Under the pieces are notes generated by a model, which was not told the DNA's origin, searched no databases, and saw only the letters and a list, made by a program, of their open reading frames with translations. The translations under genes and the position numbers were made by a program. Shown piece by piece: positions 7,731 through 52,694 of a DNA stretch of 64,000 nucleotides. Source of the DNA: Acidobacteriaceae bacterium (GTDB lineage: Bacteria > Acidobacteriota > Terriglobia > Terriglobales > Acidobacteriaceae); NCBI GenBank assembly GCA_003134855.1, contig PLCS01000004.1, forward strand, positions 62,001-126,000. Direction: 5' to 3'. Each line of letters starts with the position of its first letter. Within the stretch, counting starts at the first letter, position 1.

Positions 7731-7771
7731 CCGGGGTTCTCAGTGACAGGTCTTCGTCGCTGGGGTGAGAA
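7731..7771. repeat. ~41-bp hairpin repeat, family 1, copy A
   Basis: Begins CCGGGGTTCTC and ends TGGGGTGAGAA. Arms CAGTGAC / GTCGCTG pair (one T-G wobble) around the constant loop AGGTCTTC. Three other copies with the same loop and different but self-complementary stems occur at 17510, 17623 and (reversed) 51503. Between here and glyS, GTCCCGGAGGGAC-like and GTCCCGTAGGG fragments (7810-7915) look like decayed REP material; I see no gene in 7705-7950. Confidence 0.7.
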
Positions 7772-13891: not shown

Positions 13892-13947
13892 GGTGCCCCA
13901 TCCTTCGCATAATTTGCGAAGGGTGGGAGACCGCGAACCTCCACCGG
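13892..13947. repeat. Hairpin repeat, family 2
   Basis: GTGCCCCATCC flank, stem CTTCGCA / TGCGAAG, then GGGTGGGAGACC flank and ACCTCCACCGG. Flanks CCCATCC and GGGTGGG also pair. The remaining gap 13707-14012 holds only the terminator, this repeat pair and the promoter-like TAAGCT at 14001. Confidence 0.7.
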
Positions 13948-17456: not shown

Positions 17457-17580
17457 GGTGCCCATCCTTGATCCAGCTATAAATGATTGGGTGCCCATCC
17501 TTCGCGTTGCCGGGGTTCCCACGGACAGGTCTTCGTCCGTGGGGTGGCTGGGGGAAGGGTGGGAGACCACGAACCTCGAC
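17457..17580. repeat. Composite repeat: family 2 flanks with family 1 hairpin in the loop
   Basis: GTGCCCATCC occurs twice (17458, 17491). The second is followed by TTCGCGTTG, then the family 1 unit (17510-17549; arms CCCACGGAC / GTCCGTGGG, loop AGGTCTTC), then GGAAGGGTGGGAGACCACGA, the normal right flank of family 2. The family 1 unit therefore occupies the loop position of a family 2 hairpin. Confidence 0.75.
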
Positions 17581-17583
17581 CGC

Positions 17584-17672
17584 CCGCGCCGTAGGCGCAA
17601 TGGTTGTTAGCCCCGCGCTTCACCGGGGTCCCCAAGAAATGGTCTTTGTTTCTTGGGGTGGTAGCGTGGGGT
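17584..17672. repeat. REP (family 3) interrupted by a family 1 hairpin
   Basis: Normal family 3 reads ...CCCCGCGCTTCA-GCGTGGGG. Here, between TTCA and GCGTGGGG, sits a 41-base unit (17623-17663) with arms CCCCAAGAAA / TTTCTTGGGG around TGGTCTTTG, a clean insertion of family 1 into family 3. Confidence 0.75.
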
Positions 17673-17690
17673 TGGCTCGTGCCGTAAGCG

Positions 17691-17794: not shown

Positions 17795-18203
17795 CTGTGG
17801 TAGTTAGCCCCGCGCTTTAGCGTGGGGTTGGAGCAACCAACAATCCATCCGGAGTCCCGTAGGGACGGCGCAGTGATAGCAGCCCTTCGTCCGCGCCGTA
17901 GGCGCAATGGTGGTTAGCCCCGCGCTTTAGCGTGGGGTTGGAGCAACCAACAATCCATCTGGAGTCCCGTAGGGACGGCGCAGTGATAGCAGCCCTTCGT
18001 CCGCGCCGTAGGCGCAATGGTTGTTAGCCCCGCGCTTCAGCGTGGGGTTGGAGCAACCAACAATCCATCCGGAGTCCCGTAGGGACGGCGCAGTGATAGC
18101 AGCCCTTCGTCCGCGCCGTAGGCGCTGTGGTAGCTAGCCCCGCGCTTCAGCGTGGGGTTGGAGCAACCAACAATCCATCCGGAGTCCCGTAGGGACGGCG
18201 CAT
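17781..18203. repeat. 110-bp tandem REP array, four copies
   Basis: Units begin CCGCGCCGTAGGCGC at 17781, 17891, 18001 and 18111, an exact 110-base period; the last unit ends at GTAGGGACGGCGC (about 18203). Each contains three hairpins and the spacer AGTGATAGCAGCCCTTCGT. Copies differ by few substitutions, indicating recent amplification. Nothing in 17417-18240 looks coding. Confidence 0.9.
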
Positions 18204-31130: not shown

Positions 31131-32677
<1,547 letters not shown>

Positions 32678-34868: not shown

Positions 34869-34961
34869 TCCGCGCCGTAGGCGCAGAGGTTGTTAGCCCC
34901 GCGCTTCAGCGTGGGGTGGGCGCAACCAACATAACGATTCGGAGCCCCGTAGGGACGGTGC
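34869..34961. repeat. REP (family 3) upstream of the RAYT gene
   Basis: CCGCGCCGTAGGCGC, CCCCGCGCTTCAGCGTGGGG and GCCCCGTAGGGACGGTGC; it ends four bases before the transposase ATG. Confidence 0.85.
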
Positions 34962-34964
34962 ACT

Positions 34965-35399
34965 ATGGCCCACACGTACGCGTGCAATTTCATTCATTGT
35001 GTTTTCAGCACCAAAGAGCGCCGCTCGCTCATTCCTGCCGCCCGCACCGCTGAACTCTATGCCTACCTGGGCGGCATTGCGCGCGGTGAGGGCTTCTCGC
35101 TCATCGCCGCAGGCGGAACGGCCAATCACGTTCATTTGTTGTTTGACTTGCCGGCGACTTCTTCCCTGGCCCATGCCGTTCAGAAGCTCAAAGGAAGCTC
35201 TTCCCGGTGGATGGGAGATGGCTTTTCCTGGCAGGAAGGATACGGAGCGTTCAGTGTCAGTCCCTCGCAGGTTGAGGTTGTAAAGGAGTACATTCAAAAT
35301 CAGGAAGAGCATCACCGCAAACGCGATTTTGAGCAGGAATTTGTCGCTCTTCTACGCAATTGTGGAATCGTGTACGATGAACGCTATGTGTTTGGGTGA
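34965..35399 (+). CDS. REP-associated tyrosine transposase (RAYT, IS200-like)
   Basis: 144 aa Y1 HUH transposase of the TnpA_REP group. HUH motif HVHLL in ANHVHLLFDLP (residues about 61-71) and the catalytic Tyr in VVKEYIQNQEEHH (residue about 106). The N-terminus YACNFIHCVFSTKERRS is typical. It lies between an upstream REP and a reversed REP downstream, the arrangement known for RAYTs that act on their own repeats. Complete, no internal stop. Confidence 0.92.
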   Translation: MAHTYACNFIHCVFSTKERRSLIPAARTAELYAYLGGIARGEGFSLIAAGGTANHVHLLFDLPATSSLAHAVQKLKGSSSRWMGDGFSWQEGYGAFSVSPSQVEVVKEYIQNQEEHHRKRDFEQEFVALLRNCGIVYDERYVFG

Positions 35400-35403
35400 G
35401 CGG

Positions 35404-35505
35404 TATTTGCGCCGTCCCTACGGGACTCCGGCTTCTGCGGTATGGCCAGCTACCCCACGCTGAAGCGCGGGGCTAATAAACATTGCGCCTACGGCGCGGT
35501 CGCTT
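35404..35505. repeat. REP (family 3), inverted, downstream of the RAYT gene
   Basis: Reads GCGCCGTCCCTACGGGACTCC, then CCCCACGCTGAAGCGCGGGG, then GCGCCTACGGCGC: family 3 in reverse order and orientation relative to the upstream copy. Confidence 0.85.
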
Positions 35506-50679: not shown

Positions 50680-52437
50680 CTATGAGGTGGCGATCCACTG
50701 GCGCAGGAGTTTTCTCCCCGACCAGACAACCATCCCTAAACCAAGTATGGCACAGAGATACGCAAAAATGTCGCCGTGAGCGGTGTAGAAGGTCACGTCG
50801 CTGCGAAAGCCGTAGCCGGCGGGCAGAGCGTCGGCCTGGTGGCGGGAAATGCTTTGGCGGACGTGGCCATAGGGGTCGATGACCGCTGTGACGCCGTTGT
50901 TGGTGTCGCGCAGCAGCCAGCGGCGGTTTTCGATGGCCCTCATGCGCGCCATGTTCAAGTGCTGCCAGGGGGCGCTGGTGTCGCCGTACCAGCCGTCGTC
51001 GCTGAGGTTGACCAGCACTTCGGCGCCCAGTTGCGCGAACTGGCGCACCTCGTCGGCAAAGACCGACTCGTAACAGAGAAAGACTCCGTAGCGGTGGCCA
51101 TTCAGGCGGAAGACTTTGCGCTCCGTTCCGCGATCGGTCTCCCCGACGTTGCCGGTGAGCGCGTGGGCAAAGAAGAGAAGCCGCCGGAAAGGAATGTACT
51201 CGCCGAAGGGGACGAGGTGGATCTTGTCGTAGCGGCCCACGCGCGCGCCGTCCGCTCCGACGACCAGCGCGGAGTTGTAGATGCGGTAGCCGCCCGGCGC
51301 AACTCCCGGCTCCGGCTCGGCGAGGGAGACTCCGATAGCGCCCACAACCAACGGCGTCTGCTCCTGACGGGCGATGGAGACAAGCGCCTGTTGGAAGCGC
51401 GGATCATCATCGATAAAGGGCGCGGGCGACTCCGGCCACGCGATCAGGTCGGGATGCGTGGGGGTTGGCGGGCAGACAATCTCACCCGCGGGCGCGCCGG
51501 TCTCCCACCCCAACGACGAAGACCTGTCGTTGGGGACCCCGGTCTGGGGGATTCCGGCGATGTAGGTCTTGCACTGCTCGCCAGCCAGCCGCTGGAAGTC
51601 GGCGATGTGACTCTCCCACTCGCCAGGGCGCAGCCAGCGATTGTCGCCGGAGACGTTGAGGTTGGGCTGGATGAGGACGGCGGTGGCTGTGGGCGCGGGT
51701 GCGGGCTGCGGCCAATTGAAGCCTAATAGAAGGAATAGAACCAAGCACCTGCCGAAGACAACCCAAGTCTCGCTGCCAAATAGAGCTTTCAATCTCCATC
51801 GCGGCAGCCCTGGCATCACCGGCTGCAATTGAACCATGGAGCGACTGGCTAGGAGCGCATTGGCGGCAACCAGCACAAAGCTGATCCCATAAACGCCGAT
51901 CCAGGGCGCAAGCTGAGTCAGCAGCGCATTGTCCACCTGCGAGTAGCCGAGTTGATCCCAGGGAAAGCTGGTGATGCGCGCGGCGGCCAGCTCCATGGCG
52001 ACCCAAAGAAAAGGCGCGGCGACGAGCGTGAGGCGCGTGCTGCCCGTGGCTCGGCGAACCAGCGCAACACAAAAGCCGAAGAGGCCGAAGTAAAGCCCCA
52101 GATAGAGGCTGAAGGCCAACAGCAGCAACGTCGGCGCGCCCAGCGGCATATCGCCATACTGCTTCATCGTGTCGCGGACCCAGTAGCAGTTGCCGCCGAA
52201 CCAGAGCACGCCGCAGAGATAGCCGAGCAGGAAGCCGCGGCGCAAGGGGCGCGGCTGCTCCACACAGGCCGGTGAAAGCAAAGCCCATAGCAGCGGGACC
52301 AGGGCAAACCAGGCAAAGAGCGACCGCCAGACCGGCAACGGCCCGGCCAGCGGAAACGGCAGCTCAAGCAGGCCGGCGGAGAGACCGGCCGCGGCCCACA
52401 ACTTCCAGCTTCCCGACTTCCAGAATGCACCCTGCAT
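50680..52437 (-). CDS. lnt: Apolipoprotein N-acyltransferase
   Basis: 585 aa inner-membrane enzyme that N-acylates lipoproteins. Six to seven N-terminal helices, then a nitrilase-like domain with the Glu-Lys-Cys triad: E in LIAWPESPAPF, K in YDKIHLVPFGEYIPFR, C in VFLCYESVFADE. Longer than the usual ~510. Part of the excess is the segment GVPNDRSSSLGWET (DNA 51501-51542), which is an in-frame copy of the family 1 hairpin repeat, located before the catalytic Glu. ATG 52437 is used; TACACT lies nine bases upstream of it. Confidence 0.92.
   Translation of the reverse strand: MQGAFWKSGSWKLWAAAGLSAGLLELPFPLAGPLPVWRSLFAWFALVPLLWALLSPACVEQPRPLRRGFLLGYLCGVLWFGGNCYWVRDTMKQYGDMPLGAPTLLLLAFSLYLGLYFGLFGFCVALVRRATGSTRLTLVAAPFLWVAMELAAARITSFPWDQLGYSQVDNALLTQLAPWIGVYGISFVLVAANALLASRSMVQLQPVMPGLPRWRLKALFGSETWVVFGRCLVLFLLLGFNWPQPAPAPTATAVLIQPNLNVSGDNRWLRPGEWESHIADFQRLAGEQCKTYIAGIPQTGVPNDRSSSLGWETGAPAGEIVCPPTPTHPDLIAWPESPAPFIDDDPRFQQALVSIARQEQTPLVVGAIGVSLAEPEPGVAPGGYRIYNSALVVGADGARVGRYDKIHLVPFGEYIPFRRLLFFAHALTGNVGETDRGTERKVFRLNGHRYGVFLCYESVFADEVRQFAQLGAEVLVNLSDDGWYGDTSAPWQHLNMARMRAIENRRWLLRDTNNGVTAVIDPYGHVRQSISRHQADALPAGYGFRSDVTFYTAHGDIFAYLCAILGLGMVVWSGRKLLRQWIATS
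51503..51542 (-). repeat. Family 1 hairpin repeat inside lnt, copy D
   Basis: On the minus strand CCGGGGT, perfect arms CCCCAACGAC / GTCGTTGGGG, loop AGGTCTTC, then GTGGGAGACC. Same boundaries as the intergenic copies. Confidence 0.8.
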
Positions 52438-52535
52438 ACAGGGCCGAGTGTATCGCATCGGGCGCTGGGATGCGATGAACGAGCCTGATCTGATTTCCTC
52501 TCCGCGAAAATCCCGTGAACGAACCGGAAACAGGC

Positions 52536-52541
52536 TACAAT
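52536..52541 (+). promoter_or_regulatory. -10-like hexamer, leaderless geometry, 48-aa gene
   Basis: TACAAT, six bases, ATG 52548. The divergent lnt promoter element TACACT is at about 52447-52452. Confidence 0.45.
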
Positions 52542-52547
52542 CTGAGT

Positions 52548-52694
52548 ATGCAAGTAGCAATCTTTGCCATGCGGGTTCTGGAAGTGATGTTTTTTGTCGG
52601 CCTGGCGGGATCGGCCGTGGTCGTGCTCATCAGCTTCATCGAGGACGGCAAGGAACTCTTCGGCAAGGATGAGCCGCCCGAATCGCGCGCTTGA
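52548..52694 (+). CDS. 48-aa single-pass membrane protein
   Basis: Hydrophobic N-terminal helix (VLEVMFFVGLAGSAVVVLIS) followed by a charged tail (FIEDGKELFGKDEPPESRA). Not random: amphipathic tail with FIEDGKELFGKDE after the helix, in good acidobacterial codon use, and a leaderless promoter in front. Seems to be a small inner-membrane protein, C-terminus probably cytoplasmic. Divergent from lnt by 110 bases. Function unknown. Confidence 0.6.
   Translation: MQVAIFAMRVLEVMFFVGLAGSAVVVLISFIEDGKELFGKDEPPESRA

Follow-up and report, generated by a model that had tools for sequence, protein, structure and literature searches.

The short hairpin that recurs in the window, that is, in the whole stretch of 64,000 nucleotides from an Acidobacteriaceae bacterium that was analysed, is probably a non-autonomous mobile DNA element, which has near-constant shoulders and a freely pairing apex and is mobilised as folded copies. 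The element is mobile, its shoulders are kept, its arms are complementary, it is inserted in frame into genes and it prefers the loops of hairpins. All four copies that the original prediction had placed in the window are present, at 7731, 17510 and 17623 on the forward strand and at 51505 on the reverse strand, the last having been listed at 51503; each consists of 38-39 bases with a layout of roughly CCGGGGT-CCCC-apex-GGGG-TGG (Table 1). The repeat, predicted as a unit of about 41 bp, is real, but the unit measures 38-39 bp and reaches about 42 bp when a 4-nt direct repeat is included. In addition, the prediction had passed over the defining shoulders, the insertion in lnt and the insertion in other hairpins.

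Table 1. Copies of the element, their host hairpins and the interrupted lnt gene in the window
Feature	Positions	Strand	Remarks
Copy 1	7731..7768	+	38 bp, decayed, three G.T pairs in stem
Copy 2	17510..17547	+	38 bp, within loop of REP-like hairpin
Copy 3	17623..17661	+	39 bp, within loop of Acido-Lenti-1-type hairpin
Copy 4	51505..51542	-	38 bp, perfect stem, inside lnt
Left arm, host hairpin of copy 2, CCCATCCTT type	17494..17505	+	imperfect pairing with 17552-17563
Right arm, host hairpin of copy 2	17552..17563	+	10 pairs, 2 mismatches inside stem
Left arm, Acido-Lenti-1-type host hairpin of copy 3	17609..17619	+	sub-threshold Rfam match nearby
Right arm, Acido-Lenti-1-type host hairpin of copy 3	17663..17673	+	
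lnt, apolipoprotein N-acyltransferase, host of copy 4	50680..52560	-	Pfam LNT_N 2.8e-33, CN_hydrolase 1.4e-27
Exact 42-bp (14-codon) in-frame insertion in lnt: copy 4 + 4-nt direct repeat	51501..51542	-	uninterrupted in G009

A covariance model was built from 32 copies, the four window copies being part of the training set, and with the filters off it gave E values in the window of 7e-12 for 51505-51542(-), 4.9e-11 for 17510-17547(+), 7.6e-10 for 17623-17661(+) and 5.6e-9 for 7731-7768(+); the sole further match up to E 1 was the opposite strand of the 51505 copy. In the 3.94-Mb genome a strict pattern found 21 copies, and 0 when the pattern was read backwards. The model, with which the genomic copies were collected as had been proposed, gave 74 matches in this genome at E ≤ 0.01 and 85 at E ≤ 10, the completeness of the copy list depending on the model and its filters. 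With these 74 matches the element is, like REPs, a short palindrome with many copies per genome. A set of 76 own-genome matches, the own copies below, was examined together with the flanks.

The shoulders of the element, CCGGGGTCCCC...GGGGTGG, are near-constant and are its defining part more than the GGTCTT loop is. Only 21 of the 76 own copies have both shoulders exact. Variation at the outermost bases is mostly paired (CC..GG in 33, TC..GA in 23, and others), and the outer pairs are both Watson-Crick in 59/76. The ends can be written as CC or TC ... GG or GA around GGGGTCCCC/GGGGTG, and a terminal GTAG or CGTC tag is absent. The loop, which had been described as constant, is GGTCTT in only 58 of the 76 own copies, where GATTTTT and GATCTTT loops are found too; copies of family f30 have the loop CAG, those of family f2 the loops AGCGGT, GCAGTTT or GCTTGC and those of other genera of the window's family the loop CTTG. 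Since the apices between like shoulders differ in distant genera and families (f2, f8, f30 and other genera), constancy of the loop belongs to the main type in this genus. The patterns and the model by which the distant copies were found contained the shoulders, and the constancy of the shoulders is thus in part imposed; the paired apex and its opening A or G opposite T were not imposed there by the search pattern.

As had been proposed, the two sides of the stem change together. The genus set of 108 distinct 38-mers (188 sites, 39-mers and other lengths left out) was selected on shoulders and loop, the stem playing no part in the choice. Watson-Crick pairs make up 563 of its 648 apex pairs, whereas re-dealing the arms, a comparison that uses no tree and leaves the relatedness of the copies in the counts, yields 419 on average and 453 at most; when one arm is shifted by 1 to 3 bases, 81 to 283 such pairs are left. 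The f30 set, made from 34 of 36 f30 sequences with one 27-mer and one 36-mer left out, comprises 22 distinct 35-mers and has 133/154 Watson-Crick pairs against a re-dealt mean of 94 and maximum of 113, and a further set of 13 34-mers has 48/65 (mean 39, maximum 48), which is not significant alone. As in REPINs, conserved ends enclose a compensatory hairpin. The wording "always self-complementary" was too strong: the 7731 copy contains three G.T pairs, and the DNA of this copy and its flanks folds no better than shuffles (z -0.47).

Furthermore, the mismatches have a polarity. The pooled sets contain 74 G.T and 19 A.C oppositions; without the first apical pair the numbers are 34 and 17, a modest excess with a p of 0.024, which is not strict because the copies are related. 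At the first apical position, A-T or G.T stands in 19/22 f30 sequences, 12/13 34-mers and 88/108 genus sequences, and G.T alone accounts for 9, 10 and 21 of these, respectively. Read on the opposite strand, a G.T pair becomes a C-A mismatch, so the written strand is the one that has to fold; that is, because G.T exceeds A.C and is frequent at the first apical position, the strand required to fold is CCGGGGTCCCC...GGGGTGG.

The paired change had been ascribed either to a selected structure or to a copying process that forces both arms to match. Quasipalindrome correction is known in bacteria, and in such a process template switching during replication would rewrite one arm from the other, the matching being purely mutational. 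The arms do match in most copies, and 2 of 60 comparisons between copies sharing both flanks show a paired change outside tandem arrays (L165/L179 and L113/L386). Arm changes as a whole, however, are mostly unpaired. The arms are identical in 19 of 25 pairs of tandem neighbours, 1 pair is of unequal length, and the remaining ones show 6 unpaired arm changes, 1 paired and 1 two-sided unpaired. The 60 flank-sharing pairs, which are not independent, show 19 unpaired and 6 paired arm changes, 4 of the 6 coming from two tandem-array comparisons (L130 with L219 and L130 with L039) in which the flanks are themselves copies. Moreover, types with G.T pairs propagate without correction, GGCGAC/GTCGCT being present at 23 and GCGGAC/GTCCGT at 12 of 188 sites. 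The two findings that had been set out as refuting the prediction are both partly present, since stem changes without a partner occur and copies from beyond the genus have unrelated loops. Because unpaired changes dominate and G.T types are copied unchanged, copying does not make the arms match, and copy-forced matching was rejected; purely mutational correction, which also leaves the excess of G.T over A.C and the insertion of the element unexplained, is quite improbable. The other option, a selected structure, agrees with arm pairing that is retained and decay that is mostly unpaired. The simplest account, in which mobilisation is restricted to copies that fold, with selection for folding on one strand, fits better; selection would then act at mobilisation.

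The mobility of the element follows from clean empty sites in three genes, namely, lnt, trpF and ftsK. The lnt insert is absent from all 19 genus loci aligned over the region, and the nearest relative, G009, has the site intact. In trpF, 84 bp made of two tandem units add 28 residues, which are absent from all seven relatives aligned, G009 among them, and in ftsK a single 42-bp insert is absent from G009, the insert region being a variable linker in other relatives. These are in-frame insertions in conserved genes with intact homologues free of the insert, as is the case with Rickettsia palindromic elements (RPEs). Among 20 chosen ORFs that carry copies, in both orientations, 18 match a Pfam family over the cut-off; of the remaining two, L002 has a Pfam match below the cut-off only and L186 has none. 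Sense hosts by Pfam include FtsK, TrpF, a Glu/Gln-type synthetase, a class II synthetase with an editing domain, an aminotransferase IV, a TsaD-family protein, a UvrA-like protein and a beta-propeller protein, and antisense hosts include a pterin-binding enzyme, an RNB ribonuclease, a penicillin-binding protein, a UPF0004/radical SAM protein, a competence/lactamase protein, a DPPIV peptidase, an ABC transporter, a GH3 protein, an amine oxidase and a DDE transposase. The copies lie within the Pfam domain in the TsaD, RNB, lactamase, DPPIV and GH3 proteins and between or beyond domains in the others.

Insertion in coding genes and the strand polarity of the G.T pairs would also be expected of a structured RNA, regulatory or acting in translational bypass, whose function in the mRNA keeps the stem. 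However, among dominant ORFs of at least 250 codons, 74 elements stand 44 in sense and 30 in antisense, numbers to which a few fortuitous pattern matches and, at this G+C, possibly some spurious ORFs contribute, and Pfam-supported hosts occur in both orientations. Copies that are read in genes are open in frame, so a bypass is not needed. There are 36 elements in flanks that are open only without the element, chance open frames being common at this G+C, and none of the 36 was shown to be in a conserved gene; the loose pattern used for these reading-frame and ORF counts also takes in chance matches from shoulder-pattern loci. In addition, many copies lie inside other hairpins, and in the window the element itself has no Rfam match, the only one over the gathering score being Acido-Lenti-1, a host hairpin type. 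An RNA function is therefore very unlikely to be what keeps the stem.

As to the insertion sites of the mobile element, exact 4-nt direct repeats are present at 26/182 sites against 1.8 expected and, without tandem copies, at 19/162 sites against 1.5 expected, and at least three of the four repeat bases match at 58/162 sites (11.4 expected, maximum 22); most sites are without an exact direct repeat. Short and repeated flanks were removed from both sets, and sites preceding another copy from the 162 as well. The sequence CCGG stands at +5..+8 after the element at 16/162 sites, compared with about 1 elsewhere. A flanking stem of at least 8 matched bases (one mismatch allowed) encloses 27 of the 178 sites whose flanks measure 45 nt or more, as against 33 of 2000 positions drawn at random from the same loci. 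Copies are also nested in copies, at L011, L198, L202, L203 and L210. In the window, copy 2 splits a CCCATCCTT/AAGGGTGGG hairpin, of which uninterrupted examples stand at 13897 and 30103, and the host of copy 3 has a sub-threshold Acido-Lenti-1 match in Rfam (17585-17628, 18.3 bits, E 0.085); no host-hairpin stem was found in the flanks of the 7731 copy. Four Acido-Lenti-1-type hairpins stand in tandem in the window at 17807, 17917, 18027 and 18137, with a period of 110 bp.

The unit, for which a search in related genomes had been suggested, does recur there. The covariance model matches 45/60 genomes, namely, 36/36 of the genus (the own genome included), 8/14 of family f2, which belongs to the same order, and 1/10 of the other genomes of the class. 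Named genome contigs contain at least 114 stretches with the element, and the 80 stretches listed with titles are all from Acidobacteria, mostly Acidobacteriaceae. The shoulders alone match 70/396 genomes of the phylum, low counts possibly being due to chance since the backward control matches once or twice in some genomes. At least 4 shoulder matches are found in 25 genomes, and the control never exceeds 2 per genome (table counts by eye). Nine of these 25 are outside the window's family, that is, four of f30, two of f33 and one each of f55, f67 and f71; copy sequences were examined for the four of f30, and the others are known by counts only. Moreover, predicted viral contigs in IMG/VR contain 51 stretches with 48 distinct copies. 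The viral contigs L431, L437, L441 and L445 have genes in common, and copies lie close to these genes; the element may thus be spread by phages.

The enzyme that mobilises the element may be a RAYT/TIRYT (Y1, HUH) transposase acting in trans on a REP/REPIN-like element, with the bracketed arrangement lacking or outside the sample; this is a substantial possibility, short of an even one. All 20 genomes chosen, in which pattern matches number 2 to 30, possess a Y1_Tnp gene, and in family f2 Y1 is found in 7/8 genomes with copies and 1/6 without (Fisher test by hand, p about 0.026). On the other hand, 8/9 other-family genomes of the class with Y1 carry no copies, and in G023 (12 copies) and G047 (9), both about 73% complete, no Y1 was found. 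Among 85 sampled Y1 loci none is bracketed by the element, unlike a RAYT in a REPtron, and 23/85 are bracketed by other matched hairpins; one copy of the element lies inside 5/85 of these stretches. Hairpins were listed around 46 Y1 loci and element copies in 76, then 85, the 85 being a sample of the Y1 genes. Furthermore, direct repeats such as those at the element sites are unexpected for Y1 transposition, and the element has neither the GTAG nor the CGTC tag. REPINs have conserved ends and a middle in which compensatory changes are common (PMC3116915), as in the element. The co-occurrence of Y1 and the element is thus a lead and not a demonstration.

The 1104 ORFs within 2.5 kb of copies contain no recurrent neighbour gene, the largest cluster comprising 6 loci at a median distance of 1.5 kb. 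A MITE would share its terminal inverted repeats with an autonomous IS; an autonomous long version with the ends of the element was not found in 1.5 Mb of sampled DNA, where 250 of 258 left shoulders have a right shoulder within 70 nt and 5 of the 8 without a right partner resemble copies whose right side has changed.

Acidobacterial Y1 genes (L284-L328) are bracketed by distinct hairpin families of the TCATCGCG, GGCACGAC, CCCATCCTT and CCCAGGTCTC types, which differ in sequence from the element and some of which serve as its hosts; the CCCATCCTT-type hairpin also has matched arm variation. In L285 (1374-2003; G000 C16, around 31660-32016) a copy of the element lies within an apparently frame-disrupted Y1_Tnp gene, which is flanked on both sides by TCATCGCG-type hairpins. 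In the window, inverted Acido-Lenti-1-type units at 34896-34916 and 35453-35498, one over the Rfam threshold and one by pattern only, stand on both sides of the Y1_Tnp gene 34965-35399; such units, both over the threshold, surround a Y1_Tnp gene in L293 (343-388 and 923-968), and L292 and L295 have one beside the Y1_Tnp gene. The "RNA" of Rfam RF01687 may represent a terminal inverted repeat belonging to a Y1/HUH transposase gene.

By analogy, the element may work like REPINs, and it resembles RPEs. The SDR of cyanobacteria are very small mobile repeats and, by description only, are like the element in size and mobility. REPINs and their RAYTs (PMC3116915) share with the element that they are short, non-autonomous and multi-copy, with conserved ends and compensatory hairpin arms, but a REPIN consists of two inverted REPs and the element of 38 bp, without a GTAG tag and without a bracketing RAYT among the sampled loci, with direct repeats at part of its sites and with insertion in hairpin loops. 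The survey in PMC3733652 describes tagged GTAG/CGTC palindromes, intragenic REPs, TIR-flanked transposases of Acidobacteria and one class without a dedicated transposase. Like the element, these REPs and TIRs are small palindromes; in them a tag is conserved while stems and loops vary, some are intragenic, and the CGTC REPs too are without a dedicated transposase. The constant part of the element, in contrast, is a shoulder pair at the base of the stem. In its in-frame habit the closest system is the RPEs, palindromes standing in frame in many unrelated conserved genes (PMC10969869 and PMC3733652). They measure about 150 bp, some being shorter, and were compared by description; unlike them, the element stands in both orientations, targets loops and is widespread in one phylum. 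The GC clusters of yeast mitochondria (PMC4478555) are GC-rich mobile hairpins of about 42 nt with a putative target-site duplication and merging of units, and CGGGGTCCCC occurs by coincidence in one of the clusters listed. The substitutions of GC42 fall mainly in its loops and its stems are conserved, whereas the apical stem of the element varies in pairs. The hairpins of sponge mitochondria (PMC2800124) are of similar size, but their stems are conserved and their loops vary. A literature search, including one by sequence, gave no description of the element in titles and abstract openings, subscription journals being mostly uncovered.

For the element as a mobile folded hairpin the following mechanism is proposed. 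The shoulders, CCGGGGTCCCC and GGGGTGG, would be the part that is recognised, and the apical stem and loop would be a structural spacer, in which pairing is needed but not a particular sequence. The folded single strand is probably recognised by an enzyme supplied in trans, single-stranded DNA being more likely than RNA. If only folding copies are mobilised, the arms would change in a compensating fashion over many rounds of transposition, and after insertion a copy would decay with unpaired changes. Insertion favours the loops of hairpins, its own included, and sites followed by CCGG, and in part leaves behind a 4-nt direct repeat. More tentatively, the element could represent a RAYT-independent third class of bacterial mobile hairpin, whose shoulders at the stem base recur across Acidobacteriota, which moves as a folded single strand and travels with phages, which would use the loops of REPs, Acido-Lenti-1 hairpins and its own copies as landing pads, and whose open frames would permit 14-residue inserts in conserved proteins.

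The part of the element that is likely recognised, the shoulders, separates cleanly from the part that is merely folded, the covarying apex, so structure-guided mobility becomes testable. In addition, conserved genes such as lnt and ftsK carry inserts of 14 residues, which constitute a natural experiment on insertion tolerance. The element also gives a warning that paired change in bacterial hairpins can stem from mobile DNA and not from regulatory RNA.
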